IMG/VR virus record: IMGVR_UViG_3300009481_000010
Location: 90,329 to 154,328 of that record
Length of the DNA: 64,000 nucleotides
Direction: 5' to 3' (one strand)
DNA from: a virus
Part shown: positions 50,218-62,549 of the stretch, piece after piece
How positions within the stretch are numbered: the first letter of the stretch is position 1
Layout of the letters: every line of letters starts with the position of its first letter
Program-made: the position numbers and the translations under genes
Notes under the pieces: model-generated
The model's database searches: none
The model's input: only the letters and a program-made list of their open reading frames with translations
What the model was told of the DNA's origin: nothing

Positions 50218-51012
50218 TTATTTCTCCTCGTCAATTAAAGTGTCCGCGTTTAAGAACGGCTGATCAACAACACCATCTTCATAAGTATGGTACTGCGACA
50301 ACCTCTCCAACTCTTTCTGTTTAGCCAAACGGCGTTTTTCCATCTCAAGGCCGTACTTCCTAATCTCCGCTGGGTTCTCGATAAGACAAGTCAGCCAGCC
50401 CTTGAATGTCTGATTCTTATTTTCCAACTGCTTACTACGGTCAGCACGAGTCGCCTTCATCTCTTTCAGAATCTTATTCTTCTTTTCCTGAAGGTCGCGA
50501 TAGTCTCGATTAAGGGATTCACTACCTGCCCGTAAAGAAGCTACCTGTCTCTCCAGGTTAAACAGATATTCCTTATCTCTCTGGTCGGCGTCCTTAGCCC
50601 GTTCTTCATTAACTAATACCTCAAGGGCGTTAATCTGATTCAAGTTAGACTTAGTGCTACTCAATGCACGGTTCATTAACAGGTCCATCTTGATCATGTC
50701 AACAATCTGCATTTCTTCGGAGTGAATAACGTCGTCTTTGAACTGGGTAATCAGGTTTGAATAATGATAGTCAAACATTTCCAGTTCTGATTCCGTAAAC
50801 TGTAACTCCAGTATCTTCCAGAAGGGCCTTTGCTTAAGATCGAAGGATACACCCTCTACCTCAGATAAACCCATCCCAAACTTACGCTTAATGAATTCCT
50901 TGATACTCTCTGGATCGCGGTCTAGTGCATTACCTATTTCCTCTGGTGTTAGGTGTTCAACACTACTCTCAATGAACGCTTCCTCTTTCTTGGAAATTCT
51001 ACCCCTTTTCAC
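50218..51012 (-). CDS. Helix-turn-helix coiled-coil protein
   Basis: A GTG start at 51012 is chosen because GAGG precedes it and it overlaps the previous stop by 14 bp; an ATG at 51081 is possible. The N-terminal 50 residues (RGRISKKEEAFIESSVEHL TPEEIGNALDRDPESIKEFIKRKFG) resemble a homeodomain-like DNA-binding unit. The remainder is a long coiled coil (residues about 110-215). The design fits a small terminase subunit, but the family is not recognised. Confidence 0.6.
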   Translation of the reverse strand: MKRGRISKKEEAFIESSVEHLTPEEIGNALDRDPESIKEFIKRKFGMGLSEVEGVSFDLKQRPFWKILELQFTESELEMFDYHYSNLITQFKDDVIHSEEMQIVDMIKMDLLMNRALSSTKSNLNQINALEVLVNEERAKDADQRDKEYLFNLERQVASLRAGSESLNRDYRDLQEKKNKILKEMKATRADRSKQLENKNQTFKGWLTCLIENPAEIRKYGLEMEKRRLAKQKELERLSQYHTYEDGVVDQPFLNADTLIDEEK

Positions 51013-51535
51013 TTGTCGCCTCTTCGTGGTAATAACCGTGATCTTCGAGAATGATCTTAATGTAAGTCGTAATCTCTTCACGGCGTGGTTTTGGAACGGA
51101 GACCTGGTGGGCCATCTTCAGATAGTCCTGCCTCATATTAGCGGGCAACTCACGGTTTATCAGGTTTACCATTTCGCTGTAATCCATTGCCTCGTATTCA
51201 TCGCCGTCCTGATACGTCATATTGAAATCATCTTCCAACTGAGCAGGACGCGATACTTTCTTCTTATCATCGCTTAAGTCGTTAAGGGCGTGGTTGTCAC
51301 GCTTCAGGTTATACAACTTACGCGGTAGTACAACAGACAGGAAGTTCTCCAGTGGGTAATCGCCGTTATACTTAGGTAACGCCGCAGAGAGAATGAAATA
51401 AGACTCCTGCTTTATGTCATCTACCGTAAACCCAAAAAAGGTCCACTTAGGGGCGATCTTGTCGATCACCTTGTTCATTACCTCTAGTACCTCTTCTTCT
51501 GTCATTCCTTCTGGTACGTGAATAAAATCACTCAC
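50999..51535 (-). CDS. Sigma-like transcription factor
   Basis: This 178-residue protein has a sigma-70 region 2-like segment at residues 37-81: TVDDIKQESYFILSAALPKY, then FLSVVLPRKLYNLKRDN. This fits the core-binding and -10 recognition helices. No region 4 is visible, as in the T4 late factor gp55. Together with six minus-strand promoters that share an exact -10 10-mer and poor -35 boxes, it probably directs late transcription. Overlaps on both sides suggest coupling. Confidence 0.65.
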   Translation of the reverse strand: MSDFIHVPEGMTEEEVLEVMNKVIDKIAPKWTFFGFTVDDIKQESYFILSAALPKYNGDYPLENFLSVVLPRKLYNLKRDNHALNDLSDDKKKVSRPAQLEDDFNMTYQDGDEYEAMDYSEMVNLINRELPANMRQDYLKMAHQVSVPKPRREEITTYIKIILEDHGYYHEEATSEKG

Positions 51536-52728: not shown

Positions 52729-52761
52729 GACGTAAGTCCTTTGATAGCATAGGGTTACGTC
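52729..52761 (+). repeat. 33-bp boundary repeat, single copy
   Basis: GACGTAAGTCCTTTGATAGC with end GGGTTACGTC. The termini GACGTAA/TTACGTC are inverted repeats. It lies 47 bp upstream of the first early promoter. Confidence 0.85.
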
Positions 52762-52808
52762 AATTTATATTCTTTTCTTTTTCTTTTGAATAAACGTGAG
52801 GAAAGCTA

Positions 52809-52837
52809 TTGACAAATGCCGATACTAAGTATATAAT
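52809..52837 (+). promoter_or_regulatory. Early promoter, perfect consensus
   Basis: TTGACA, a 17-bp spacer (with GCCGAT) and TATAAT. The ATG follows after 6 bases, implying a leaderless transcript. Confidence 0.85.
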
Positions 52838-52843
52838 ACACGT

Positions 52844-52978
52844 ATGAGCAATAAACAAAAAACACAAGCAGTTGTCGATGGATCACGCAAGCGTCGTTTC
52901 TCAAGCAATGAGACTAAACGCCTGTGGTATGCCAAGTGGCGAAACATCCGATTCTCACGCCGTCTCACTACATGTTAG
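52844..52978 (+). CDS. Small basic protein, leaderless start
   Basis: The 44-residue basic protein starts MSNKQKTQAVVDGSRKRRF and ends RLTTC. Its ATG is only 7 bp after the -10 hexamer of a perfect promoter (TTGACA, 17-bp spacer, TATAAT), so the message is probably leaderless. It is the first gene of the early arm. It may bind nucleic acid, given its 13 or so Lys/Arg, but this is an inference. Confidence 0.7.
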   Translation: MSNKQKTQAVVDGSRKRRFSSNETKRLWYAKWRNIRFSRRLTTC

Positions 52979-52987
52979 GTTGATCAA

Positions 52988-53176
52988 ATGTCTAAGTATC
53001 ATATATCATTCACCCTGGTTTGTCCGTTCACCAATGAAAACCGCCTGAACTGGAGCGGTATTGTCAAGGCAGATAATGCGGAATTGGCCGTAATCTTCGC
53101 CCGAAATGATCTTATGAAATCTCGAAAAATTTGGGGAAAAGCAATCGATGTCCGTTGCAATTCCCTGAATGGCTGA
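52988..53176 (+). CDS. Small unknown protein
   Basis: The 62-residue protein (MSKYHISFTLVCPFTNENRLNW) begins with a beta strand and has a helix (NAELAVIFARNDLMKSRKIW). It follows the previous gene by 9 bp. The next promoter's -35 lies within its last codons. It looks like a small phage protein of the 'host interaction' type. No family was recognised. Confidence 0.7.
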   Translation: MSKYHISFTLVCPFTNENRLNWSGIVKADNAELAVIFARNDLMKSRKIWGKAIDVRCNSLNG

Positions 53177-53182
53177 TATAAT
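53155..53182 (+). promoter_or_regulatory. Early promoter
   Basis: TTGCAA, a 16-bp spacer and TATAAT, upstream of the gene at 53213 and overlapping the end of the previous gene. Confidence 0.75.
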
Positions 53183-53212
53183 ACACTCATCACAAACACA
53201 AGGGAACAAACA

Positions 53213-53476
53213 ATGATCACAATCACAAGCCAACATGACGGTTCAACGGTTCTCGAATTCGCATCATGTTTTGAGTTTGATGATGGTTTCCCAGGTGGCA
53301 TGATTGAGAAGGGTTTCGATGTTCACTTTAATGGTGATCTCGAATTGCACGTAGGGCAGAAGATCGAAACTCTTGATGGCAAGGAAGTCTGGATTGATTT
53401 CATTCACGGCGATTATGTAACGGCTTCCGATTGGGATGATAATAATCACGAAATTGACATAAATGATATCGACTAG
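53213..53476 (+). CDS. Small acidic protein, paralog of next gene
   Basis: This 87-residue acidic beta-rich protein ends GQKIETLDGKEVWIDFIHGDY and DINDID. The end resembles that of the next gene (MVLIEGVEYCVTSIYEDGCF ... EVNDIG), suggesting a shared SH3/KOW-like domain. Own promoter at 53155-53182; leader with GGGAACAAACA. Function unknown. Confidence 0.75.
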   Translation: MITITSQHDGSTVLEFASCFEFDDGFPGGMIEKGFDVHFNGDLELHVGQKIETLDGKEVWIDFIHGDYVTASDWDDNNHEIDINDID

Positions 53477-53478
53477 GC

Positions 53479-53506
53479 TTGCAATGGGCAGCATAGTTGA
53501 TATAAT
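53479..53506 (+). promoter_or_regulatory. Early promoter
   Basis: TTGCAA, a 16-bp spacer and TATAAT, directly after the previous stop and before the gene at 53539. Confidence 0.75.
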
Positions 53507-53538
53507 ACACACATCACACAACCAAAAAGGAAAAGAAA

Positions 53539-53715
53539 ATGATCTCAGAAACATTCATCAACTGGCTCGACGAATCAGTGACACTCACCGTTGACGAAAT
53601 GGTATTGATTGAGGGTGTTGAGTATTGCGTCACATCCATCTATGAGGATGGCTGCTTCACTGCTATCGATAAGGATGGCGAGGAACGATGGTTCGAGGTG
53701 AATGATATCGGGTAG
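53539..53715 (+). CDS. Small acidic protein, paralog of previous gene
   Basis: The 58-residue protein is encoded by MISETFINWLDESVTLTVDE and ends RWFEVNDIG. It has a promoter at 53479-53506 and the leader AAAAAGGAAAAGAAA just before the ATG, a leader style shared by several early genes. It is a probable relative of the 87-residue protein. Function unknown. Confidence 0.75.
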   Translation: MISETFINWLDESVTLTVDEMVLIEGVEYCVTSIYEDGCFTAIDKDGEERWFEVNDIG

Positions 53716-53743
53716 TCACACCCATACCAGCCGCATAGGCGGC
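53713..53743 (+). repeat. Repeat of TAGTCACACCCATACC, copy 1
   Basis: TAGTCACACCCATACCAGCC then GCATAGGCGGCA; GCCGC/GCGGC forms a short hairpin. A second copy lies at 54966-55009 with ACACCCATACC duplicated in tandem. Confidence 0.7.
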
Positions 53744-53774
53744 ATACACTCCTAAATGTGAGAACTTCGAGATT

Positions 53775-53855
53775 GACCTAACCCCTTGGTATGAAAGGAC
53801 TTACGTCATTTTGGGGGGCCGCGACGTAAACCCTTTGGTAGTAACGACTTACGAC
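53775..53855. repeat. 33-bp boundary repeats, direct pair
   Basis: Copies at 53775-53807 and 53823-53855 in the same orientation, with a 15-bp linker containing GGGGGGCC. They are 47 bp upstream of a promoter. Confidence 0.85.
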
Positions 53856-53902
53856 AACTTAGAAAACTTTCTTTTTCTTATGGGTTTTTGTGGAGAATAG
53901 CC

Positions 53903-53930
53903 TTGCAATTGCCGATAATTATTGTACAAT
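53903..53930 (+). promoter_or_regulatory. Early promoter
   Basis: TTGCAA, a 16-bp spacer with GCCGAT and TACAAT, 47 bp after a 33-bp repeat and before the gene at 53961. Confidence 0.75.
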
Positions 53931-53960
53931 GGTAGTATGACAAGCACAAAGGAAAACAAA

Positions 53961-54119
53961 ATGAGCCAACTCGAAATCATCGCCCGAATCATCAAAGATG
54001 AAAACATCACCAGCGGATTTGTTAAAAATCTGCGAATTGTCGAAATGTTGATTAACTCTGGATTGTCTTACACTCTCCAGCCAAAAGTTGAGAAAATTAT
54101 GGAAAATCTTGACGACTGA
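53961..54119 (+). CDS. Small helical protein
   Basis: The start at 53961 is chosen over an upstream ATG at 53937 because it has AAAGGAAAACAAA before it, like other early leaders, and because 53937 is only 6 bp after the -10. The 52-residue protein (MSQLEIIARIIKDENITSGF) is helical. Function unknown. Confidence 0.7.
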   Translation: MSQLEIIARIIKDENITSGFVKNLRIVEMLINSGLSYTLQPKVEKIMENLDD

Positions 54120-54121
54120 TC

Positions 54122-54150
54122 TTGCAATCACCGGCAATACTTGTTATAAT
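54122..54150 (+). promoter_or_regulatory. Early promoter
   Basis: TTGCAA, a 17-bp spacer and TATAAT, before the gene at 54180. Confidence 0.75.
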
Positions 54151-54179
54151 ACACTCAACACAAACGAAAAGGAAAAAAC

Positions 54180-54410
54180 ATGAGTTACATTCTTGCAGCA
54201 CGAATCAGAGAAGATCGAATCAACAAGAGCGTTGAAAAGTACAACGCATACGTTGAAAAGAACGGCGAGCCTACTGCCGAAGATATGAAGGCACTGATTG
54301 AGAAGTCACACCAATGGCGGAAAGACGGAGAAACCCGTCTGCAATGGTGGGCCATCAAGGTTTATAATGGCTGGCTGTTCACCACACAGAAGAAAACAAT
54401 TTGGAGCTAA
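54180..54410 (+). CDS. Small helical protein
   Basis: This 76-residue protein (MSYILAARIREDRINKSVEKY) has helix-forming Glu/Lys and Trp-rich segments (RLQWWAIKVYNGWLF). A strong promoter (54122-54150) and AAAAGGAAAAAAC leader precede it. Function unknown. Confidence 0.75.
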   Translation: MSYILAARIREDRINKSVEKYNAYVEKNGEPTAEDMKALIEKSHQWRKDGETRLQWWAIKVYNGWLFTTQKKTIWS

Positions 54411-54435
54411 TTCCAAAAAAGTCCTGGCTTTGCTC

Positions 54436-54464
54436 TTGATTCCGCCGTCGATTGCCGATATAAT
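54436..54464 (+). promoter_or_regulatory. Early promoter
   Basis: TTGATT, a 17-bp spacer (GCCGAT) and TATAAT, before the gene at 54501. Confidence 0.7.
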
Positions 54465-54500
54465 ACTTAGACAACGAAACAAACAACAAAGGAAAAGAAA

Positions 54501-54734
54501 ATGAAATTTGTATCTGCATTCGACAAGCCTTTCCACTGTGAAACACCCAACAGTGATTCTCACCGATGTTTCCCCGGCGTTACCGCAATGCTGGAATTCC
54601 TGAAGGAAAACGACGCAGGTGAAATCAAGTATGATGACGAATTCGGTGTCTGGCGTGTGCCCGCCTGGTCTGTTGGTCGTCAGAAATATTCTGAAATGAA
54701 ACAGCGTCATTGTGACCGATACGGTTGCGAATAG
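54501..54734 (+). CDS. Small unknown protein
   Basis: This 77-residue protein (MKFVSAFDKPFHCETPNSDS) has a conserved-looking start and ends YGCE. It has its own promoter at 54436-54464 and AAAGGAAAAGAAA leader. The next promoter's -35 sits inside its final codons. Function unknown. Confidence 0.75.
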   Translation: MKFVSAFDKPFHCETPNSDSHRCFPGVTAMLEFLKENDAGEIKYDDEFGVWRVPAWSVGRQKYSEMKQRHCDRYGCE

Positions 54735-54753
54735 TCCGGCGATCTGATACAAT
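54725..54753 (+). promoter_or_regulatory. Early promoter for structured stretch
   Basis: TTGCGA, a 17-bp spacer and TACAAT, with the -35 in the last codons of the previous gene. It would transcribe the structured stretch at 54755-55020. Confidence 0.65.
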
Positions 54754-55020
54754 ACACTAGTGACGTTCACGGCGATCCCAAGCGGCCTGAAAAACCGCGA
54801 ATATGAAAACGATAAGACGGGCGTTCTCCACTAGTGTTATAATTCAAGAAGGAAATAAAAACCAATGTGAAATCTACAGGGTAGCGGCATGGTCCGCGTA
54901 GTGGCGAAATCCCTCAGCCTGATTTGTGCTAGCGTTGGCTAGTGAAGTGCAAACAATCCTCCAAATAGTCACACCCATACCACACCCATACCAGCCGCAT
55001 AAGCCGCAGGACATAGAAGA
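54754..55020 (+). other. Hairpin-rich stretch before 55021 gene
   Basis: No gene was found. It contains two copies of the palindrome CACTAGTG (54755-54762, 54829-54836), hairpin GCGG/CCGC, an SD-like AAGGA before ATGTGA (54866), a GCGG-CATGGT-CCGC hairpin and a doubled ACACCCATACC repeat. It may be a structured 5' leader or small RNA. Confidence 0.4.
54966..55009 (+). repeat. Repeat of TAGTCACACCCATACC, copy 2
   Basis: It matches the copy at 53713 and carries an extra tandem CACACCCATACC. It lies just before the gene at 55021. Confidence 0.7.
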
Positions 55021-55257
55021 ATGTGCGAAAAGATTCAGAGTAAAATAGAAGAACGATACGGCAAGGAAGCAGCCGAATACTACCGTCTTACATATGGGAA
55101 TGAGGAGTTTTTCTCATTTGACGGACATAATTGTGAAGATTGGGACGAAAACGAACCATGTTTGGGTTGGGATGGGGAATCCCGTAGGTGTAACTGTGGA
55201 AATAGGCGGGTTGATTGGATTTGGGAAAATGGGATATTGTGGGCACAAGCCTACTAG
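55021..55257 (+). CDS. Small Cys-containing protein
   Basis: This 78-residue protein ends GWDGESRRCNCGNRRVDWIW. The RxCNCGNRRV motif is frequent in small phage proteins. It has four Cys and may bind metal. Its stop codon's last base is the first base of a 33-bp repeat. No promoter is close; it may be transcribed from 54725-54753 through a structured stretch. Confidence 0.75.
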   Translation: MCEKIQSKIEERYGKEAAEYYRLTYGNEEFFSFDGHNCEDWDENEPCLGWDGESRRCNCGNRRVDWIWENGILWAQAY

Positions 55258-55338
55258 ACGTAACCCGTTGGTATGAAAGGACTTATGGCACGCGGGGCCG
55301 AAATCGTCGTAAGTCTATACAGGGTAAGGGTTTACGTT
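55257..55338. repeat. 33-bp boundary repeats, inverted pair
   Basis: Copies at 55257-55289 and 55306-55338 in opposite orientation with a 16-bp linker (GCGGGGCC). The first base is the last base of a stop codon. Confidence 0.85.
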
Positions 55339-55381
55339 CACTGATAATAGGGAAAACTTTAGAAAAACATACAGAACGGCG

Positions 55382-55410
55382 TTGACAATAGCCGATGATA
55401 TGTGTATAAT
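55382..55410 (+). promoter_or_regulatory. Early promoter, perfect consensus
   Basis: TTGACA, a 17-bp spacer (GCCGAT) and TATAAT. It drives the gene at 55417 as a leaderless transcript and lies 43 bp after a 33-bp repeat. Confidence 0.85.
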
Positions 55411-55416
55411 ACCCTC

Positions 55417-55611
55417 ATGAGCAAAATCGTACCACACAACTGTGTTTACTGCGGCAAACCCGTAGGAGATCATCCTGAAGCGGCTAAGGTTTCCCATTGG
55501 CAATGTGCATTTGATGCAATGGCCCCAATGAGAGCAGAGCGGGCCGCTAAGCAAGCAGCAAAAGAAGAAAAAAGGAAAAAGCTGAATGATAGACTGGGCA
55601 GAACTGATTAA
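55417..55611 (+). CDS. Small zinc-finger-like protein, leaderless
   Basis: The 64-residue protein MSKIVPHNCVYCGKPVGDHPE has CVYC plus a later His and Cys (KVSHWQC) and a basic, helical tail. The ATG is 7 bp after the -10 box, so the mRNA is probably leaderless; an in-frame GTG at 55402 lies upstream of the start site. It overlaps a small membrane-peptide gene by 26 bp. Confidence 0.75.
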   Translation: MSKIVPHNCVYCGKPVGDHPEAAKVSHWQCAFDAMAPMRAERAAKQAAKEEKRKKLNDRLGRTD

Positions 55612-55681
55612 CCTGGTAAGTATCGCCGTTTCTATTGCGGCTCCGGCGATTATGGGTTTTCTGGCTTTTTTGTCGAAATAG
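55586..55681 (+). CDS. Small membrane peptide
   Basis: A 31-residue peptide (MIDWAELINLVSIAVSIAAP, then AIMGFLAFLSK) with one likely membrane segment of about 20 residues. An AAAGGAAAAAG site lies upstream of the ATG, inside the previous gene. It could act on membranes, for example as a holin-like or antitoxin-target peptide, but the role is not known. Confidence 0.6.
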   Translation: MIDWAELINLVSIAVSIAAPAIMGFLAFLSK

Positions 55682-55683
55682 AG

Positions 55684-55711
55684 TTGACATTTCTTGACCG
55701 TGTGCTATAAT
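55684..55711 (+). promoter_or_regulatory. Early promoter
   Basis: TTGACA, a 16-bp spacer and TATAAT, before the gene at 55752. Confidence 0.8.
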
Positions 55712-55751
55712 GTTAGCATACAACACTCAACCACTTTTGGAGATTTGAAAG

Positions 55752-56003
55752 ATGAAACTGGTAAACAACATTCCTGCCAAGGGTATTCCAGTCAGCACCG
55801 CAATCCAGATGAACGAATGCACCCTAATGGTGCTGGCTCTGTGTCGCCTACACGCACCGGAAGCTATGAAGGAAGTGGAAGCTTCACCGGCTGGCGAACA
55901 CCTCAGCCAGCTTGAGGAAACCATTGATAAGAGCATTATCCATCTTCACATTCTCAAAAACGCTGAAAGTGCCATGCAGCAGAAGGCAGCAGAAGGTAAT
56001 TGA
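55752..56003 (+). CDS. Small helical protein
   Basis: This 83-residue protein (MKLVNNIPAKGIPVSTAIQM) is largely helical. A GGAG motif precedes it, and its promoter is at 55684-55711. Its stop overlaps the next start (TGATGA). Function unknown. Confidence 0.75.
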   Translation: MKLVNNIPAKGIPVSTAIQMNECTLMVLALCRLHAPEAMKEVEASPAGEHLSQLEETIDKSIIHLHILKNAESAMQQKAAEGN

Positions 56004-56128
56004 TGAAAGTCAAAAAAGGTATGGGCGGTTCCCGCTGTGGTCGGGGCCGTCGAGAGAAAACCGAAACTCTCAAGAAAAACTCCAAAAAGGCTCGTCGAGC
56101 TATTGACAAACGGGAGTCTATCGGTTAA
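56003..56128 (+). CDS. Small basic peptide
   Basis: A 41-residue peptide MKVKKGMGGSRCGRGRREKT followed by a Lys/Arg helix. It is coupled to the previous gene. The promoter for the downstream structured locus overlaps its end: the -35 is inside it and the -10 lies across its stop. It might bind RNA or DNA. Confidence 0.65.
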   Translation: MKVKKGMGGSRCGRGRREKTETLKKNSKKARRAIDKRESIG

Positions 56129-56131
56129 AAT
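56103..56131 (+). promoter_or_regulatory. Promoter for structured RNA locus
   Basis: TTGACA, a 17-bp spacer and TAAAAT, across the end of the 41-residue gene. Transcript would start near 56138, just before a 14-bp inverted repeat. Confidence 0.7.
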
Positions 56132-56148
56132 ACTGAGAGAGCATTTGT

Positions 56149-56203
56149 TGCGACCAGCGGGAAAACGGGAATGAAAAGTCCTGGAGATATCCCGCTGGTC
56201 GCA
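56149..56203 (+). repeat. Perfect 14-bp inverted repeat
   Basis: TGCGACCAGCGGGA (56149-56162) and TCCCGCTGGTCGCA (56190-56203) enclose 27 bases. It lies about 11 bp after the predicted start of the transcript. Confidence 0.85.
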
Positions 56204-56313
56204 GTAAGTGCTTTCGAAACAAACTAATATACAGTGCGGATCGGTGGAAGTCCGATGGTGCCGAGCAATCGCGTTTGTAAGGGCCGTTATATAGCACGCA
56301 CTACATACAATAT

Positions 56314-56470
56314 ACCCCTGTACGCGGATAGCATAGCGACCGGACTATAAATCTGGTGTTATAGATATCTGACTCACTGACGGCCTGGTACCGGGCTGAG
56401 CAGTAAGGCTGTGGATCGATACACAGCCGGCAGGTATTTATGTTCGCAGGTGTCGAATCCTGCCAGGGGT
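56314..56470 (+). other. Split tRNA-Tyr-like element
   Basis: The ends ACCCCTG and CAGGGGT pair perfectly as a 7-bp acceptor. CGC/GCG can form a D-stem, CCGGA-CTATAAA-TCTGG an anticodon arm of tRNA-Tyr style (anticodon AUA rather than GUA), and GCAGG-TGTCGAAT-CCTGC a T-arm with 8-nt loop. However, 89 bases lie between the anticodon arm and the T-arm. It could be a degenerate tRNA, a tRNA mimic or a chance match. Confidence 0.35.
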
Positions 56471-56593
56471 TGCCTACACGGCGAGTAAGGGTCGGGGAGA
56501 ATCACGCCCAATAAAATCTTGCAAGAGTCCTTCTTACTTGATAGTGGTATCAGGACCGCCGTTCTTATTTTGAAGAATTTGAAATCGCCGTAA

Positions 56594-56740
56594 CCTGCTT
56601 GCTGCACATGCTGCGGCGATGCCGACACCGGTGATGTCAACCAGGATGAGGATGACGGTCAACCTACGGAGTATGAGGAATGGCAGGACGTGTACGGTGG
56701 GGATGATTGGGATCACGGACAATTTGACGAAACTTTTTAA
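56594..56740 (+). other. Open frame without start codon
   Basis: A 48-residue open frame starts after an in-frame TAA at 56591 and ends at 56740. It reads PACCTCCGDADTGDVNQDED, then YEEWQDVYGGDDWDHGQFDE, a composition like the small acidic phage proteins nearby. There is no ATG, GTG or TTG near its start. It might be the end of a broken gene. Low confidence. Confidence 0.25.
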
Positions 56741-56749
56741 GTTTTGCTC

Positions 56750-56777
56750 TTGACTCACTGGCGAAAGCCAGTATAAT
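56750..56777 (+). promoter_or_regulatory. Early promoter
   Basis: TTGACT, a 16-bp spacer and TATAAT, before the gene at 56813. Confidence 0.75.
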
Positions 56778-56812
56778 ACTCGTATCAGTCAACAACCTTT
56801 GGAGATTTCAAG

Positions 56813-56956
56813 ATGGATTCTTTCGATAACATTCAAGTTGAAGATCTGGCCGCACTGGAAGCTTACGAGGCTTCCCAGGAATTGCAGTGGCTGGACGACT
56901 GGGACGATCAGGCGATTGAAGATGCAAACGCCGAACTTCAATGTTTGGCGAATTAG
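56813..56956 (+). CDS. Small acidic protein
   Basis: A 47-residue acidic peptide (MDSFDNIQVEDLAALEAYEA then QWLDDWDDQAIEDANAELQC) with strong helix character. GGAG lies 8 bases before its ATG, and a promoter is at 56750-56777. Function unknown; acidic composition is typical of phage DNA mimics but no evidence points to this specifically. Confidence 0.65.
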   Translation: MDSFDNIQVEDLAALEAYEASQELQWLDDWDDQAIEDANAELQCLAN

Positions 56957-57179
56957 GAAAAGCCACCCAACTAAGCCCCTGGCAAGGGCATCACCTTAGC
57001 GGAGATAATCCAATGTGAGATTTACGCCATTACACCTGGACGCCCCCACATGCGGAGATCAGGTAGGCTATGCGAAATTGTGGGGACACGTCGCCAATGG
57101 GCACCTATGTGGTGGGCGGCGTGTCAGAGCCTTCCCGTTTGTAACACCCGACCCTATCGGGTAGCCAAGCCGAGCTAGT
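56957..57179 (+). ncRNA. Hairpin-rich region after acidic peptide
   Basis: This stretch has no gene. It contains an ATGTGA start-stop preceded by GGAG (57014), arms CCCCACA/TGTGGGG (57044-57050 and 57079-57085), an 11-bp stem with one G-U pair (57085-57095 and 57115-57125), and a hairpin ACCCGA/TCGGGT (57146-57162). It shares CCAATGTGA.AT.TAC with position 54862. It is probably a structured RNA or long 3' region. Confidence 0.4.
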
Positions 57180-57260
57180 GACGTAACCACTGTGTGGGTA
57201 ACGACTTACGTCGCCGGGGGCCGATTTGACGTAAGTCCTTTAGTGGTAAGGGTTTAGGGT
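57180..57260. repeat. 33-bp boundary repeats, inverted pair
   Basis: Copies at 57180-57212 and 57228-57260 with a 15-bp linker (GCCGGGGGCC). The inner ends GACTTACGTC and GACGTAAGTC form a perfect 10-bp stem. Confidence 0.88.
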
Positions 57261-57317
57261 GAGGTTTATTACTGATAATGAGAACGGAGAATATTCAGAA
57301 AAAGGTAGAGAACGGCG

Positions 57318-57346
57318 TTGACATGTGCCGATGATTAGTGTATAAT
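57318..57346 (+). promoter_or_regulatory. Early promoter, perfect consensus
   Basis: TTGACA, a 17-bp spacer (GCCGAT) and TATAAT, 57 bp after a 33-bp repeat and before the operon at 57410. Confidence 0.85.
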
Positions 57347-57409
57347 GTACGTACACGAAAGGGAAAACATAATTAAGGGTTATTTTAACGCAGACGGAGA
57401 TTGGGTATC

Positions 57410-57550
57410 ATGAATAACGAAATGTGGAAAAAACTGAAAAACATGTGCATGGAAGACCGCATCAGGCTGGTATATGAATGGGTCAAAACTGGAAAAATCA
57501 ATTTGAGGGATTTCCACGAAATCTGTGAGTCTCTATTATTGGGGTGTTAG
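57410..57550 (+). CDS. Small basic protein
   Basis: A 46-residue protein MNNEMWKKLKNMCMEDRIRL followed by VYEWVKTGKINLRDFHEI. It looks helical. The promoter at 57318-57346 gives a leader of about 55 nt with CGGAGA. Its stop precedes the next ATG by one base. Function unknown. Confidence 0.7.
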   Translation: MNNEMWKKLKNMCMEDRIRLVYEWVKTGKINLRDFHEICESLLLGC

Positions 57551-57551
57551 A

Positions 57552-57749
57552 ATGACACTTGACGAAATCGACGAAACCACAACAGTCTCAGAAGATGAGG
57601 CGATCCGAGAACTTGAAAAACATTTCAAAATTGTTCAGGTTTTGAGTGATGGTCGCTTGTGGTGTGTCGAAGAAGATGCTATAATATGTGAGCGGGATTT
57701 AAACGGCGAATTCAGTGCTCAGGCAATTCTCACTTGGTTAGGATACTGA
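57552..57749 (+). CDS. Small acidic protein
   Basis: The 65-residue protein starts MTLDEIDETTTVSEDEAIRE; an in-frame GTG at 57525 is possible but lies in the previous gene. It is beta-like in the middle (FKIVQVLSDGRLWCVEED). It is coupled to the previous gene. Function unknown. Confidence 0.7.
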   Translation: MTLDEIDETTTVSEDEAIRELEKHFKIVQVLSDGRLWCVEEDAIICERDLNGEFSAQAILTWLGY

Positions 57750-57770
57750 CCTACGGTAAAGGAAGAAAAA

Positions 57771-58121
57771 ATGAAGTTTTTCGCATACGATCAAAACAAC
57801 TCTGGCGGTTCTTACTGGGGACCGTTGTACGTTATCGTTCAGGCTAAGAACAGCGATCATGCTGACGATTTAGTTACGCAGTTTACGGACGTTTATTTCG
57901 ACGGCTGTAATTCCGGTAAGGATTGTTCTTGCTGTGGTGATCGATGGCATCGATGTTGGAATGACGGCGATGATTTGCCGTCTGATGTTTACACCGGCAG
58001 CGGCTACGGTGCTGATCGAGCTGATGCTCCATTGTGTGTCAACGCTGTTGGTGATGTTGTGAAGCGTCACGATTTGCCGATGGATGTTGATTCTTTCGAT
58101 TCTGACCCTTTTTGGAAATAG
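57771..58121 (+). CDS. Conserved phage protein with CCGDRW motif
   Basis: This 116-residue protein has MKFFAYDQNNSGGSYWGPLY and CNSGKDCSCCGDRWHRCW, a pattern found in many phage genomes with unknown function. The Cys cluster may bind a metal. GGTAAAGGAAG lies just before the ATG. It is co-transcribed with the two upstream genes. Confidence 0.8.
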   Translation: MKFFAYDQNNSGGSYWGPLYVIVQAKNSDHADDLVTQFTDVYFDGCNSGKDCSCCGDRWHRCWNDGDDLPSDVYTGSGYGADRADAPLCVNAVGDVVKRHDLPMDVDSFDSDPFWK

Positions 58122-58135
58122 TTGGGCGATTAGCC

Positions 58136-58164
58136 TTTCACCAGATATGGAAGTCTGGTATAAT
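58136..58164 (+). promoter_or_regulatory. Early promoter, weak -35
   Basis: TTTCAC, a 17-bp spacer and TATAAT before the gene at 58200. Confidence 0.6.
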
Positions 58165-58199
58165 ACACTCTCACAAACCAACCTTCTGGAGTTCACACA

Positions 58200-58634
58200 A
58201 TGCCGATTATTCTTGACGATGGCCGCAATTTCCCAACAAATCAGGAACGTATTGACGCCCTGGAATCACCTATCGCCCGCCACCTGTTTCAGGAATGGCA
58301 GGATTCTCTGATGGATCTTTTCGGTGATGCTGATGGTAGTGTAGCCGATATGATTCTGGCTCGCGAGAATCAAAAGCGAGTCAACGAATTGTCAGACTTT
58401 CGGCAGCGTAAAGCGACCAAAGAAGAAAAAGCGGAAGACTATCGGGACCAGGTTTCTTGCCTGAGTATCTACGATGATCCGCGATCAATCCAGGAAATTG
58501 AAGATGCTGGAGAAAACCCCCCAGAAATGGAATGGGACGAAGACGAAGATAGACTAGACAGAAACTTGCGTCTGTTCGCAAGACTCATGATTGAACAAGG
58601 AAAGTTGAGCAATGAAGACTTCGAAGAAGAGTAG
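58200..58634 (+). CDS. Acidic helical protein
   Basis: This 144-residue protein is rich in Asp/Glu and helical (SDFRQRKATKEEKAEDYRDQ). The start at 58200 is preceded by CTGGAG and a promoter at 58136-58164. It has no recognised family. The acidic C-terminus (SNEDFEEE) is typical for this arm. Confidence 0.75.
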   Translation: MPIILDDGRNFPTNQERIDALESPIARHLFQEWQDSLMDLFGDADGSVADMILARENQKRVNELSDFRQRKATKEEKAEDYRDQVSCLSIYDDPRSIQEIEDAGENPPEMEWDEDEDRLDRNLRLFARLMIEQGKLSNEDFEEE

Positions 58635-58638
58635 GCGA

Positions 58639-58758
58639 ATGTATGCTATGGGTCACGTTGACACGTCGCAGGGTTGTGGCGTGCATCGTGACAAGCGTAG
58701 TAAACGTAAACGCACACGACAGGCACAGAAGGCTGAAGCCCTGAAGGAACAACGATGA
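58639..58758 (+). CDS. Small basic peptide
   Basis: A 39-residue peptide MYAMGHVDTSQGCGVHRDKR followed by a Lys/Arg helix. Its stop overlaps the next start (ATGA). It may bind nucleic acid. No recognised family. Confidence 0.6.
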   Translation: MYAMGHVDTSQGCGVHRDKRSKRKRTRQAQKAEALKEQR

Positions 58759-59012
58759 GTAAAACCATTACCATAAAACCTGAATGGATACGGGCAATCG
58801 CGAAAGCCTCTTCATCATTGAGATTCACAGCGGACCAATGGGATTGGATCACACCAGCAGCAAGAGAGGAATCACATTCTATTGCTGATTTGCTCGACGA
58901 AATTGAAGCCGAGTATTTTACAACCTGCTCACACTCTGACACATATATCACAATGGATATGGGCGAGCATGTTAATATCTGCCGAGATTGCAGAAAGAAT
59001 CTGGACATATGA
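58755..59012 (+). CDS. Small zinc-ribbon-like protein
   Basis: This 85-residue protein has a helical start and C-terminal ligands of the form C.H..........H...C..C (TTCSHSDTYI then EHVNICRDCRKNLDI). It is coupled to both neighbours by ATGA overlaps. Function unknown. Confidence 0.75.
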   Translation: MSKTITIKPEWIRAIAKASSSLRFTADQWDWITPAAREESHSIADLLDEIEAEYFTTCSHSDTYITMDMGEHVNICRDCRKNLDI

Positions 59013-59143
59013 CCATTCAAGCATTCGTCTACCGAATGAAGTACAAATGTGCTGACCGTCCTGAGCATGTACACCCGCTTCGTTGGCAGGGTATGCTGGT
59101 CTGGTGGTCTCATAACTGGGAGAGATTTACGTGCGATATTTAG
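59009..59143 (+). CDS. Small Trp-rich protein
   Basis: A 44-residue peptide (MTIQAFVYRMKYKCADRPEH then WWSHNWERFTCDI) overlapping both neighbours. It contains several Trp and two Cys. No recognised family. Confidence 0.6.
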   Translation: MTIQAFVYRMKYKCADRPEHVHPLRWQGMLVWWSHNWERFTCDI

Positions 59144-59307
59144 TTTTTGCGTTTGATACATACTACCCTAGTGGTGGAATACAGGATATCGTGGGAGTAG
59201 CTGCCACCCTAGACGAGGCAAAAGAAATCGCCCTAAAACATAAATCTTATGACCATGTGGAAGTATATGACACCATTAAGGATGATGAAGTCTGGTGTTT
59301 GGCATAA
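59131..59307 (+). CDS. Small protein with GTG start
   Basis: The 58-residue protein begins at GTG 59131 (RYLVFAFDTYYPSGGIQDIV), preceded by GGGAGAG at good spacing. It resembles phage proteins that start YLVFAFD.YYPSGG.xD and have a helix EAKEIA. Its stop lies inside the first copy of a 33-bp repeat pair. Confidence 0.7.
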   Translation: MRYLVFAFDTYYPSGGIQDIVGVAATLDEAKEIALKHKSYDHVEVYDTIKDDEVWCLA

Positions 59308-59385
59308 ACCCTTTGACCGCAACGACTTACGTCGAGGCGGCGGGCCGGATTTTCCCTAAGTCCTTTGATACCATACACTTACGGC
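59301..59385. repeat. 33-bp boundary repeats, inverted pair
   Basis: Copies at 59301-59333 and 59353-59385, more diverged at the outer ends, with a 19-bp G/C-rich linker. The first copy carries the stop codon of the previous gene. Confidence 0.8.
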
Positions 59386-59443
59386 GAGAATCAGTTCTCA
59401 TTATTGAAAACGGATAAACTTTGAAAAACTTTATTGAATCCTC

Positions 59444-59471
59444 TTGACTATTCTGGTCGATACTGTATAAT
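59444..59471 (+). promoter_or_regulatory. Early promoter
   Basis: TTGACT, a 16-bp spacer and TATAAT, 58 bp after a 33-bp repeat and before the gene at 59515. Confidence 0.8.
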
Positions 59472-59514
59472 GGGGGCACAAGCAACGAACAACACACCCC
59501 ACAACGAAAGGCGA

Positions 59515-59832
59515 ATGAAAATGGCATCGTATCTGAAACCGGAAAATGTACGGCGTTCTGTTCAGCGTGCAGCCGCAAAGCTGGATGAAGTCAACCCTGG
59601 ATGGCGAGAAAAAATCAATTTGTCCGAATTAGATTTGCGGAGTGCGGGCCAATGTGTACTTGGGCAGTTGTACGGCCACTGTTGCCATGCTCCAAGGACA
59701 GTCAAGGAACTTCAGGCTTTCTGGTATGATCGCACCTGGTATCGACATCCAGAAGTGTTAAACGATCACAATTTGTCTGAAGCTGTCTGGAGTACGTACA
59801 CCGCCGCTTGGACAAAAGTTCTGGCATATTAG
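59515..59832 (+). CDS. Small phage protein, unknown
   Basis: The 105-residue product starts at ATG 59515, preceded by GAAAGG, about 37 nt downstream of the probable transcript start. It has a QCVLGQLYGHCCHAPRTVKEL segment that may contain a metal or active-site Cys. Similar small proteins are seen in other large phages. Function unknown. Confidence 0.75.
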   Translation: MKMASYLKPENVRRSVQRAAAKLDEVNPGWREKINLSELDLRSAGQCVLGQLYGHCCHAPRTVKELQAFWYDRTWYRHPEVLNDHNLSEAVWSTYTAAWTKVLAY

Positions 59833-59851
59833 AAAACTTTCAAAAAACCGC

Positions 59852-59879
59852 TTGACAATTAGCTCGCCTCTGCTATAAT
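59852..59879 (+). promoter_or_regulatory. Early promoter, perfect consensus
   Basis: TTGACA, a 16-bp spacer and TATAAT, before the gene at 59936. Confidence 0.85.
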
Positions 59880-59935
59880 AGGGGCAACGAAGAACGCACT
59901 TCACTTTTTACCCTGTTCACGAAAGGAACAACACA

Positions 59936-60196
59936 ATGAGTGCAATTTCAACTGGTCCGGCTCGAACTGAGGAAGCTATCCGTGGTCGTGTCAACGTCCG
60001 TGCAGGTGTCATCGTTGATGGCAAGATCCAGAAGGGCACCCGCTCTTTCAACATGGAAGACATGACTGCCGATGAGGCATTCGACTACCTGATCGAACAG
60101 GACACACTTGCGTGTGCTCTGTCCGCTCTGGCCGAAGAACACGGTGTAAGCACTGATGAAGTGCTTTCCGCTGCTGCTTCGACTCTGTCAGAGTAG
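59936..60196 (+). CDS. Small acidic protein before a terminator
   Basis: This 86-residue protein (MSAISTGPARTEEAIRGRVN) is half beta and half helix (DEAFDYLIEQDTLACALSAL). It has its own promoter (59852-59879), a GAAAGGA leader and an intrinsic terminator directly after it, so it forms a single-gene unit. Function unknown. Confidence 0.75.
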   Translation: MSAISTGPARTEEAIRGRVNVRAGVIVDGKIQKGTRSFNMEDMTADEAFDYLIEQDTLACALSALAEEHGVSTDEVLSAAASTLSE

Positions 60197-60207
60197 TCAC
60201 TGCGGCC

Positions 60208-60237
60208 GGGGGGACCGCTACATTCCCCCCATCTTTT
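60208..60237 (+). terminator. Intrinsic terminator after 60196
   Basis: GGGGGG and CCCCCC pair around an 11-nt loop, followed by ATCTTTT. It ends the single-gene unit at 59936-60196, just before the tRNA-like region. Confidence 0.7.
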
Positions 60238-60322
60238 GCGAGAACGGTTGTAAACATTAGGATCTCTCTGGTTCAAACCTGTCCTAGTGCTCTTACCGAT
60301 AGTTCGATTCTATCGCTCGCAG
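60237..60322 (+). tRNA. tRNA-like element upstream of tRNA-Glu
   Basis: TGCGAG and CTCGCA can form six acceptor pairs, and GATAG-TTCGATT-CTATC forms a perfect T-arm. The length (86 nt) would fit a tRNA with a long variable arm. But no ordinary 5-bp anticodon stem with a 7-nt loop was found; TAGGA/TCCTA closes a 19-nt interval instead. It may be a degenerate or unusual tRNA. Confidence 0.35.
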
Positions 60323-60327
60323 CTTTT

Positions 60328-60402
60328 GGCACAGTAGTTTCTGTTGGCAGAAATATCAGACTTTCAATCTGATGTTCACGGGTTCGATTCCCGTCTGTGT
60401 CA
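60328..60402 (+). tRNA. tRNA-Glu (anticodon TTC)
   Basis: A full cloverleaf is readable: acceptor GGCACAG/CTGTGTC with one G-U pair, D-stem TTTC/GAAA, anticodon arm TCAGA-CTTTCAA-TCTGA and T-arm ACGGG-TTCGATT-CCCGT. The anticodon TTC reads GAA/GAG glutamate codons. No CCA is encoded, so the host must add it. It lies between a terminator and the next small-gene operon. Confidence 0.92.
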
Positions 60403-60440
60403 CTCTCAACCTAGCCCCATAGTCCCCCAGGAGTATTAAA

Positions 60441-60674
60441 ATGCTGAAGACGAAAACAACTATCTCTGTCAAGAAAATCTCTTCTATCTCATGTTGGGGT
60501 GATCTGACGATCTATACTGAGGATGGTAACGAAATCAACGTTACCCTTACACTGGCCGAAAAGGAATCTCTGGCCGACAATCTCACACGTCGAGTGAAGG
60601 AAGAAAAAAAGCGGAAGCTTGATTCCCTTCGCGAAGAACTGGAAGAAGCTGAAAATGCAGAATCCGACGATTAA
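60441..60674 (+). CDS. Small beta/coiled-coil protein
   Basis: The 77-residue protein has a beta N-terminus (KTTISVKKISSISCWGDLTIY) and a charged C-terminal helix. CAGGAG precedes the ATG. It overlaps the next gene by 20 bp. No promoter was found close by, so it may be transcribed with the tRNA. Confidence 0.7.
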   Translation: MLKTKTTISVKKISSISCWGDLTIYTEDGNEINVTLTLAEKESLADNLTRRVKEEKKRKLDSLREELEEAENAESDD

Positions 60675-60804
60675 GGTTGACACCGAATTGCCTGGCTGCG
60701 TGGTCGTAGCCATTAAGAACGACCACATCCTAATCCGCCGCGAAGATGGAGAAATTGCACGTTGTAGTTTTTCTATGGCAGAACGTCTCTCGGAGTTTAA
60801 GTAA
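60655..60804 (+). CDS. Small beta-rich protein
   Basis: The 49-residue protein starts at ATG 60655 (MQNPTIKVDTELPGCVVVAI), with GAAGAAG before it. A TTG-type upstream start at 60619 is less likely. It shares one base with the next start (TAATG). Function unknown. Confidence 0.65.
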   Translation: MQNPTIKVDTELPGCVVVAIKNDHILIRREDGEIARCSFSMAERLSEFK

Positions 60805-61007
60805 TGGAAAAGTCAGTTCTCAAAAACAAGCGTTCCGGTTCACGGGTCTCATTTCTCTATCCCCGACATGGCAACACCAACGTGCTGCGTAGTGTGACCG
60901 GTGTCATCGACCGTAAGGGTGTTGGTCCCAACGGCCCCTACGTGACCGTCAACGAAGGCTCTACCGGCTACCGCACTTTCAGTGCTAAGAAAATCGTCGA
61001 ACTGTAG
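60804..61007 (+). CDS. Small basic beta-rich protein
   Basis: This 67-residue protein (RVSFLYPRHGNTNVLRSVTG then YRTFSAKKIVEL) has the look of a small SH3-like, nucleic-acid-binding fold common in phages. It is the last gene before a hairpin (about 61010-61054) and an intrinsic terminator. Function unknown. Confidence 0.7.
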   Translation: MEKSVLKNKRSGSRVSFLYPRHGNTNVLRSVTGVIDRKGVGPNGPYVTVNEGSTGYRTFSAKKIVEL

Positions 61008-61062
61008 CCTGTGGGGGCTGGAGTACGTAAATGCATTGCAGCCACCCCCACACGCTATATCT

Positions 61063-61094
61063 AAGCTCACCCGCAAGGGTGGGCTTTTTTTATT
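61063..61094 (+). terminator. Intrinsic terminator after 61007
   Basis: GCTCACCC-GCAA-GGGTGGGC (one G-U pair, GNRA-type loop) is followed by TTTTTTTATTT. It is preceded by a second long hairpin with GTGGGGGCTG and CAGCCACCCCCAC arms (about 61010-61054). Confidence 0.9.
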
Positions 61095-61111
61095 TACTGA
61101 TAATGGGAAAT

Positions 61112-61193
61112 GACGTAAGTACTTGCTATCAAACGAGTTACGTCGCCGGGGGGCATTTTTGACGTAAGTCCTTTAGTACTATGGGGTTACGGC
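61112..61193. repeat. 33-bp boundary repeats, direct pair
   Basis: Copies at 61112-61144 and 61161-61193 in the same orientation, with a 16-bp linker (GCCGGGGGGC). They follow an intrinsic terminator, so the repeats are not needed to end the upstream transcript. Confidence 0.85.
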
Positions 61194-61241
61194 GAGAAAA
61201 AATTCTCAAAGAAAATAATCGAGATTCCGTGAAAATACCGC

Positions 61242-61269
61242 TTGCAATTATTGTATAGGGTGATACAAT
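61242..61269 (+). promoter_or_regulatory. Early promoter
   Basis: TTGCAA, a 16-bp spacer and TACAAT, 48 bp after a 33-bp repeat and before the GP88-like gene. Confidence 0.75.
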
Positions 61270-61298
61270 GGACACAAACCAACACAGAAAGGGAACGA

Positions 61299-62045
61299 AT
61301 GTTTTCACCAGCCAACAGTAAACTAAAGAAATTGTACGATTTTGAGCCATTGCAGCCGTGGTTTGAGGATCGCCGCAAAGTGTACTCATTCGATACGCTC
61401 GCAGGCCATGCCTGCCCGGGTGCATTGAAATGTAAGGCTAAGGTTGTTGAAGTTGAAGGCCGTCGAAAACTCCAGGACGGACCAAAGCAGGAATTCCGCT
61501 GCTATGCCGCAAGTCAGGAAGTACGTTTAACCAACGTATACGAAAAGCACAAGCGGAATTTTGAGGCTATTCGTAGGCTATCAACAGCACAAGTCCGAAC
61601 TTTCCTGTCAACTATCGTGCCTGAAAATATGGGCGTCTGTCGTATCCACACAAGCGGAGATTTTCTGAACAAGAAGTATTTTCTCGGCTGGATGCAGTTT
61701 GCTGAATTGCACCCCAAGACTATTTTCTACGCATATACTAAGAGCCTGCCCTATTGGGTGGACTATGCTGGAGAAGTCCCGCCGAATATGATTCTTACCG
61801 CCTCGTATGGTGGCAAGTGGGATGAACTAATTCCAATACACGGACTGCGGTCTGCTATCGTCGTGAGGGATGAAGACGAAGCCGCCGCAATGGGTTTAGA
61901 TATCGACCGTGACGATAGTCACGCGAGCGATCCAAATCATAGAGAATCAGATTTTGCACTTGAGATTCACGGCTCACAACGTGCAGGGACTGAGGCCGCT
62001 GTGGCATGGGAGAAAATCCGCCGTGCAAGGATAAAAGGAAAATGA
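61299..62045 (+). CDS. GP88-family phage protein
   Basis: The 248-residue protein starts at ATG 61299 with AAAGGGAACGA before it; the frame is open further upstream but that part spans the promoter. It has CPGALKC (Cys39, Cys45), later FRCYA (Cys68), HTSGDF and the end of a GP88-like domain (FYAYTKSLPYW, then PPNMILTASYGG). The family occurs in many phages and its function is not established. The Cys pattern suggests a metal or Fe-S site, but this is inferred. Confidence 0.78.
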   Translation: MFSPANSKLKKLYDFEPLQPWFEDRRKVYSFDTLAGHACPGALKCKAKVVEVEGRRKLQDGPKQEFRCYAASQEVRLTNVYEKHKRNFEAIRRLSTAQVRTFLSTIVPENMGVCRIHTSGDFLNKKYFLGWMQFAELHPKTIFYAYTKSLPYWVDYAGEVPPNMILTASYGGKWDELIPIHGLRSAIVVRDEDEAAAMGLDIDRDDSHASDPNHRESDFALEIHGSQRAGTEAAVAWEKIRRARIKGK

Positions 62046-62104
62046 TCCAACTGGCCCTGCTAGGTATCCTCATCCAGATTTGTAATAAGAGCATCAACAA
62101 ATGA
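62042..62104 (+). CDS. Very small hydrophobic peptide
   Basis: A 20-residue open frame MIQLALLGILIQICNKSINK overlaps the previous stop and the next start (ATGA both times). GGAAA lies upstream. The coupled overlaps support translation, but its small size makes this uncertain. Confidence 0.4.
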   Translation: MIQLALLGILIQICNKSINK

Positions 62105-62322
62105 CTGGACTACCTTATAGCTTTGATCTACTGTACGACATCAAGACCCTCCGGCAGCTACGCATTGAATATAATGCTGCTAGGGCTAAGGTTAACAGTA
62201 TCGAAGCTATGTCAAGGGAGTTTGGTATAAGTTTGGAATGTTCTCACGAACAGGTAGAAAGTTACGGAAATGGAGAGGATTGCTGGCGGGAATGTTTAGA
62301 CTGCGGGTGTGAGGTTCCGTAG
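62101..62322 (+). CDS. Small helical Cys-containing protein
   Basis: This 73-residue protein has a coiled-coil segment (LRQLRIEYNAARAKVNSIEA) and a C-terminal Cys cluster (SLECSHEQ, CWRECLDCGCEVP) that could bind zinc. It ends 27 bp before the first copy of a 33-bp repeat pair. Function unknown. Confidence 0.75.
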   Translation: MTGLPYSFDLLYDIKTLRQLRIEYNAARAKVNSIEAMSREFGISLECSHEQVESYGNGEDCWRECLDCGCEVP

Positions 62323-62349
62323 TTCGTAGGGTGGCTTAGCTCAAAGATT

Positions 62350-62434
62350 GATATAAGTTGTTGATATGAAACGACTTAGGGCGAGCCGCCGCCCCCGCCG
62401 CGACGTAAGTCCTTTGATACCAACGGGTTACGTC
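62350..62434. repeat. 33-bp boundary repeats, inverted pair
   Basis: Copies at 62350-62382 (diverged) and 62402-62434 with a 19-bp linker rich in GCC. They are 86 bp upstream of a promoter. Confidence 0.8.
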
Positions 62435-62520: not shown

Positions 62521-62549
62521 TTGCAATTTTGGGTTGGCCGTGGTATAAT
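62521..62549 (+). promoter_or_regulatory. Early promoter
   Basis: TTGCAA, a 17-bp spacer (GCCG) and TATAAT, before the gene at 62586. Confidence 0.75.

Follow-up and report, generated by a model that had tools for sequence, protein, structure and literature searches.

Paired 33-bp palindromes ahead of early promoters as a probable operator module in a large group of uncultivated phages

What is the role of a repeat that recurs, mostly in pairs, between the early gene blocks of a phage? The question is raised by a 33-bp repeat in the right end (positions 90329-154328) of the 154,328-bp IMG/VR record IMGVR_UViG_3300009481_000010, a stretch of 64,000 nucleotides that we call the window and that supplies our coordinates unless a genome position or another locus is named. 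Our analysis of this record and its relatives, which like all IMG/VR records represent uncultivated viruses, shows that the repeats are real and conserved sites upstream of outward-reading sigma70-type promoters, and that their distance to the -35 hexamer is set modulo the helical repeat. On the strength of this placement, of the helically phased gap, and of the lack of covariation between the arms of the repeat, we predict that they are DNA sites bound by a regulator. We estimate a probability of about 0.7 that the paired units form an upstream operator pair through which a dimeric regulator would control the adjoining early promoter.

Repeat units, their pairs, and the adjoining promoters

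An earlier note on the window had described 13 copies at seven loci, six of them pairs around linkers of 15-19 bp, and our search with the 33-mer recovered all of them: one single element and six pairs with GC-rich linkers (Table 1), all within 52729-62434, with no copies in the rest of the 154,328-bp record. The 20-base head of the repeat gives 7 matches at up to 3 mismatches, versus 0.01 expected by chance. The nearest strong TTGACA/TATAAT promoter begins 43-86 bp past each locus, as the earlier note had also stated, and the loci sit past the last gene of one block and ahead of the promoter of the next. That the units are not inside genes is claimed for the window only, because gene calls in the contigs of relatives are rough. 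A count of four inverted and two direct pairs needs revision: by best strand, five are inverted and the pair at 59301 favors the direct orientation by a slim margin (9 versus 11 mismatches), and since every unit is nearly palindromic in its own right, the distinction has little meaning.

Relatives gathered via the early gene P0004, which encodes a DUF932 protein, and via the terminase comprise 58 related loci; these are rich in 33-bp units, mainly paired and typically at one pair per 0.6-1.6 kb. A pattern scan of IMG/VR places the module on at least 120 loci. The arrays are confined to one region in all four related records checked, and two of the four array-bearing related records have elements at both record ends, which fits a permuted genome; the element is absent from three other relatives. 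No cultured relatives were found at the DNA level, the terminase is ~25-28% identical to those of Bacillus, SPbeta-like and Microcystis phages, and the 33-mer gives chance-level matches only in cultured phages. We found no earlier description of the repeat in the literature, mostly that outside subscription journals. A single host assignment was dropped, as array contigs are binned with metagenome-assembled genomes (MAGs) of Planctomycetota, Bacteroidota, and Proteobacteria. The module appears to be a common early-gene control feature of a large group of uncultivated tailed phages with genomes of ~100-240 kb, and it would let their early gene set be read from sequence.

Each unit consists of a 13-bp arm, a 7-bp variable centre and a second 13-bp arm (pooled consensus GnCGTAAGTCsTT-N7-AAsGACTTACGnC), and the half-sites are nearly symmetric at 14.8-16.9 bits each. 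The site is dyad-symmetric with conserved half-sites, recurs at several promoters, and keeps a fixed geometry (helical phasing) relative to the promoter, as dimer-bound multi-site phage operators do. Among the IMG/VR matches listed, neighbouring units lie 52/53 bp apart from start to start in 151 pairs, 49-51 bp in 55, and 41/42 bp in 44, and contigs mostly hold to one value. The spacing of most pairs, 52/53 bp, amounts to five helical turns, and that of 41/42 bp, found in other lineages, to four. The linker is 84% GC in oriented pairs. The centre is conserved as TTGAnnnTCAA in some lineages; loci L146, L155, L111, and L083 combine this centre with the 41/42-bp spacing, in arrays denser than those of the window phage.

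Promoters were called with a simple hand-made score, for which the controls were shuffled or random. A strong promoter reading away lies within 150 bp of 166 of the 470 units, and strong TTGACA/TATAAT promoters near units read outward in 175 cases versus 19 inward. The gap between the element edge and the -35 hexamer is AT-rich (72% versus 58%), and its length clusters at 26-28, 36-38, 47-48, and 57-60 bp, while intermediate lengths are rare. With a 10.5-bp period, which is not preferred over others from 10 to 11.5 bp, the Rayleigh test gives p of ~1e-13 when every pair is included, ~1e-12 when only the 53-bp pairs are, and 2e-6 when only the 52-bp pairs are. After reduction to 53 non-redundant promoters, whose spacers are dissimilar, p is 3.6e-5, and counting a single promoter from each locus gives 1.8e-4. 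Position relative to promoters, on which the earlier note had staked its regulatory reading, is conserved in related phages, and of the roles that it proposed, that of operator gains from both the outward bias and the helical phasing.

In our proposal, a dimeric protein with sequence specificity would bind the 33-bp unit as double-stranded DNA, reading the two 13-bp half-sites and leaving the 7-bp centre unread; two such units, as a rule separated by five helical turns, would make up one upstream operator pair. Two dimers would cooperate to set promoter output, whether by touching each other, by contacting RNA polymerase, or by wrapping or looping the DNA. The geometry predicts that both dimers lie on the same face of the DNA and that half-turn shifts inactivate the module. 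Such a pair is most likely a new variant of the multi-site phage operators. Several observations weigh against an operator pair. About 47% of the units have no promoter scoring at least 11 within 200 bp on either side, and one lineage group has a spacing of 48-50 bp, which is off an integral turn; the pairs of the window phage itself are irregular, at 48-52 bp. Further, a comparison of proteins between array-bearing and array-less relatives did not find the binding protein: among the proteins common to four array-bearing records, just one is missing from all three array-less ones.

Less likely roles: transcript hairpin, roadblock, or replication site

The units could also act as RNA structures, such as terminators, processing sites, or paired hairpins. 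Compared with shuffles, two of the six window pairs have a clearly better fold (z -3.1 and -2.1), a third is borderline (-1.95), and the other three show no advantage; there is no Rfam match for the repeat. Across 134 distinct copies, the arms show no covariation of the kind that would preserve pairing, and shuffled partners in fact match more often than the real arms do at positions 8, 9, 11, and 14 (z -3.4 to -4.2 for the real arms). Neither a hairpin in the transcript nor a cruciform is therefore likely, and recognition of half-sites on double-stranded DNA is favored. We thus reject the RNA hairpin or terminator as hardly credible, in agreement with the earlier opinion that a pure terminator role was improbable. 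The T4-type promoter-early stem-loop (PeSL) cassettes also place a palindrome together with an early promoter at the borders of variable gene blocks. PeSLs are stem-loops, whereas the 33-bp units lack pairing covariation.

The position of the window loci, after the last gene of one block and before the next promoter, would also suit stoperator-like roadblocks or insulators, at which a bound protein halts transcription from the preceding block. A terminator is visible at a single window locus (~61060-61095, ahead of the pair at 61112) and the single element at 52729 lies in the divergent region, both as had been noted. The cluster A mycobacteriophage repressors offer a precedent, as one protein of these temperate phages occupies more than 20 intergenic or promoter sites (PMC9283540). 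Their 13-bp operators and stoperators are bound by monomers, asymmetric, and oriented with transcription (PMC9283540), whereas the half-sites here are near-symmetric and the phasing is to the downstream promoter. We consider it quite unlikely that roadblock or insulator activity is the function of the units. As an addition to the proposed operator function, it is possible: since the modules lie between gene blocks, transcription running on from the block before could be stopped at the bound complex as well.

Multiple repeats in one genome region might also be replication or partition sites (iterons or parS-like sites), as the earlier note had suggested alongside operators. The array extends across 10 kb, and every module in it stands apart from the others with its own phased link to a promoter, a layout that makes this part of the suggestion very improbable.

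The same palindrome at integrase sites

The odd-centred 13-7-13 layout of the unit also matches that of tyrosine-recombinase sites, in which two inverted arms surround an overlap of 6-8 bp. The units could thus be core sites, and the genes of the array would then be cassettes exchanged through the action of a recombining enzyme of the host or of a mobile element. Indeed, the same palindrome (TAAGTCsTT-N7-AAsGACTTA, 13-7-13) is found in Planctomycetota, where the strict pattern occurs in 7 of 392 genomes (9 sites) and the reversed control in none. In Planctomycetota MAGs chosen for holding a site, the sites adjoin the 3' ends of tRNA-Glu (twice), tRNA-SeC, and transfer-messenger RNA (tmRNA), with an integrase gene or remnants beside them (Table 1). 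Ahead of its integrase, a temperate phage (L125) has an attP-like stretch with similar palindromes, and the 7-bp centres of the units are closer within contigs than between them (4.06 versus 2.89 of 7), which is also in favor of recombination. However, most centres within one genome differ (5% are identical within a contig), and helical phasing to promoters is not predicted by recombination. We found no phage-encoded tyrosine recombinase in array-bearing records, as PF00589 is absent from all 31 large records, including the phage's own, and from 38 of 40 others, the remaining two being of a different kind. The integrase in L201 likewise has no relatives in 20 phage records, and no viral homologues of it were found. 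The rate of collinearity breaks is 32% at elements versus 15% at random positions, a twofold excess that nearly vanishes against promoter-bearing intergenic controls without elements (28%), and against these controls cassette exchange gains no support. Given the lack of an integrase in the array phages and breakpoints near the control level, we do not class the units as recombination sites, and this alternative appears unlikely.

The sites in Planctomycetota occur singly at the 3' ends of tRNAs and tmRNA, next to an integrase gene or what is left of one, whereas those of the phages are paired, tied to promoters, and unaccompanied by an integrase. Since the arms are the same, we retain a common origin of specificity as a reading, and the match with attachment cores raises a testable question about the source of site specificity. 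It is conceivable, if about as doubtful, that the early promoters are controlled via paired core sites of integrase type, to which a protein with a recombinase fold would bind as a transcription factor and not as a recombinase; such a protein might be supplied by the host, belong to a resident mobile element, or be encoded by a phage gene that has diverged very far.

Table 1. Repeat units and promoters of the window, and the matching palindromes of Planctomycetota (distances are from start to start for pairs)
Feature	Position	Strand	Basis
Single 33-bp element, first of early arm, divergent region	52729..52761	+	repeat search
Promoter TTGACA-N17-TATAAT with TGCCGATA spacer box, 47 bp past single element	52809..52837	+	promoter score
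Pair 2, distal element	53775..53807	-	repeat search
Pair 2, proximal element; 48 bp; linker 53808-53822	53823..53855	+	repeat search
Promoter TTGCAA-N16-TACAAT, 47 bp past pair 2	53903..53930	+	promoter score
Pair 3, distal element	55257..55289	-	repeat search
Pair 3, proximal element; 49 bp	55306..55338	+	repeat search
Promoter TTGACA-N17-TATAAT with GCCGATG box, 43 bp past pair 3	55382..55410	+	promoter score
Pair 4, distal element	57180..57212	-	repeat search
Pair 4, proximal element; 48 bp	57228..57260	+	repeat search
Promoter TTGACA-N17-TATAAT with GCCGATG box, 57 bp past pair 4	57318..57346	+	promoter score
Pair 5, distal element, ambiguous orientation	59301..59333	.	repeat search
Pair 5, proximal element; 52 bp	59353..59385	+	repeat search
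Promoter TTGACT-N16-TATAAT with CGATA box, 58 bp past pair 5	59444..59471	+	promoter score
Pair 6, distal element, directly past intrinsic terminator	61112..61144	-	repeat search
Pair 6, proximal element; 49 bp	61161..61193	+	repeat search
Promoter TTGCAA-N16, 48 bp past pair 6	61242..61269	+	promoter score
Pair 7, distal element	62350..62382	-	repeat search
Pair 7, proximal element, exact consensus; 52 bp	62402..62434	+	repeat search
Promoter TTGCAA-N17-TATAAT, 86 bp past pair 7	62521..62549	+	promoter score
33-bp palindrome at tRNA-Glu 3' end; full tyrosine integrase gene ends in site	L201:3838-3870		
33-bp palindrome at tRNA-SeC 3' end; integrase-like remnant ends in or near site	L200:5245-5277		
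33-bp palindrome at tRNA-Glu 3' end; integrase-like remnant ends in or near site	L198:2847-2879		
33-bp palindrome at tmRNA 3' end	L217:1497-1529		

Comparable phage repeats, the spacer box, and candidate regulators

Among known phage repeats, the extended start-associated sequences (ESAS) of cluster K mycobacteriophages are paired imperfect inverted repeats with 17-bp units and spacers of 4-13 bp, which accompany a start-associated sequence of 13 bp at the start codon (PMC3203893). They resemble the module described here in being inverted-repeat pairs with a variable spacer that precede some of the genes and are conserved among the phages of one cluster, and in having a binder not identified in that study. 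Here, however, the units are 33 bp long, mostly 48-53 bp apart, and tied to promoters by helical phase; they are not 17-bp pairs next to a start-associated sequence at a start codon, and the sequences are unrelated by eye. Cluster O mycobacteriophages carry many copies of a 17-bp palindrome with a variable centre, likewise proposed to be dimer binding sites, of which about one third lie inside genes and few near promoters (PMC4351075), whereas the 33-bp units are intergenic in the window, paired, and promoter-phased.

The promoters also have a box in common, TGCCGATA, which lies inside the -35/-10 spacer, ~12 bp ahead of the -10 hexamer. CGAT occurs in 119 of 172 promoter spacers, and CCGAT in 69 of 172 versus 1.3 expected. 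The box is commoner at promoters beside elements (130/199) than away from them (169/490); it is found in the early promoters at 52809, 55382, 57318, and 59444 and in relatives, and also at promoters without paired elements. In relatives that lack the arrays, it is present at 1 of 13 promoters in L026 and 12 of 15 in L023. In the latter, a different repeated palindrome, TGCCAAAATGGCA, stands with a GC-rich stretch ahead of several CGAT-type promoters (for example at 1675-1746, 4138-4168, and 7437-7508 of L023). As this is the place that the 33-bp element takes elsewhere, the site that occupies the upstream slot may vary from lineage to lineage.

Array-bearing and array-less relatives are natural controls for identifying the binding protein. 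A candidate from presence and absence, at genome 57104-57898, fits the pattern but was rejected since it is not DNA-binding in appearance. Two helix-turn-helix proteins (genome 35847-36170 and window 50218-51081) are weakly similar to the T5 D5-like regulator family and are weak leads as candidate regulators. A sigma-factor-like protein, likewise a lead, is encoded by the phage at L009:4748-5233 (genome 24748-25236; PHROG sigma, E value 3e-11), and a second possible one, judged by eye, lies at window 50999-51535 on the minus strand, at the start of the late genes.

Apart from the array, window 56150-56202 holds a perfect 13-bp inverted repeat (GCGACCAGCGGGA / TCCCGCTGGTCGC) followed by ~350 bases without an obvious gene; there is no Rfam match for this stretch and the next 350 bases, and it is possibly a structured RNA of a new type. 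Finally, by eye, the DNA polymerase III alpha gene at L010:7147-10780 (genome 47147-50780) is apparently split by what resembles an intein, in which lies an endonuclease-like reading frame.

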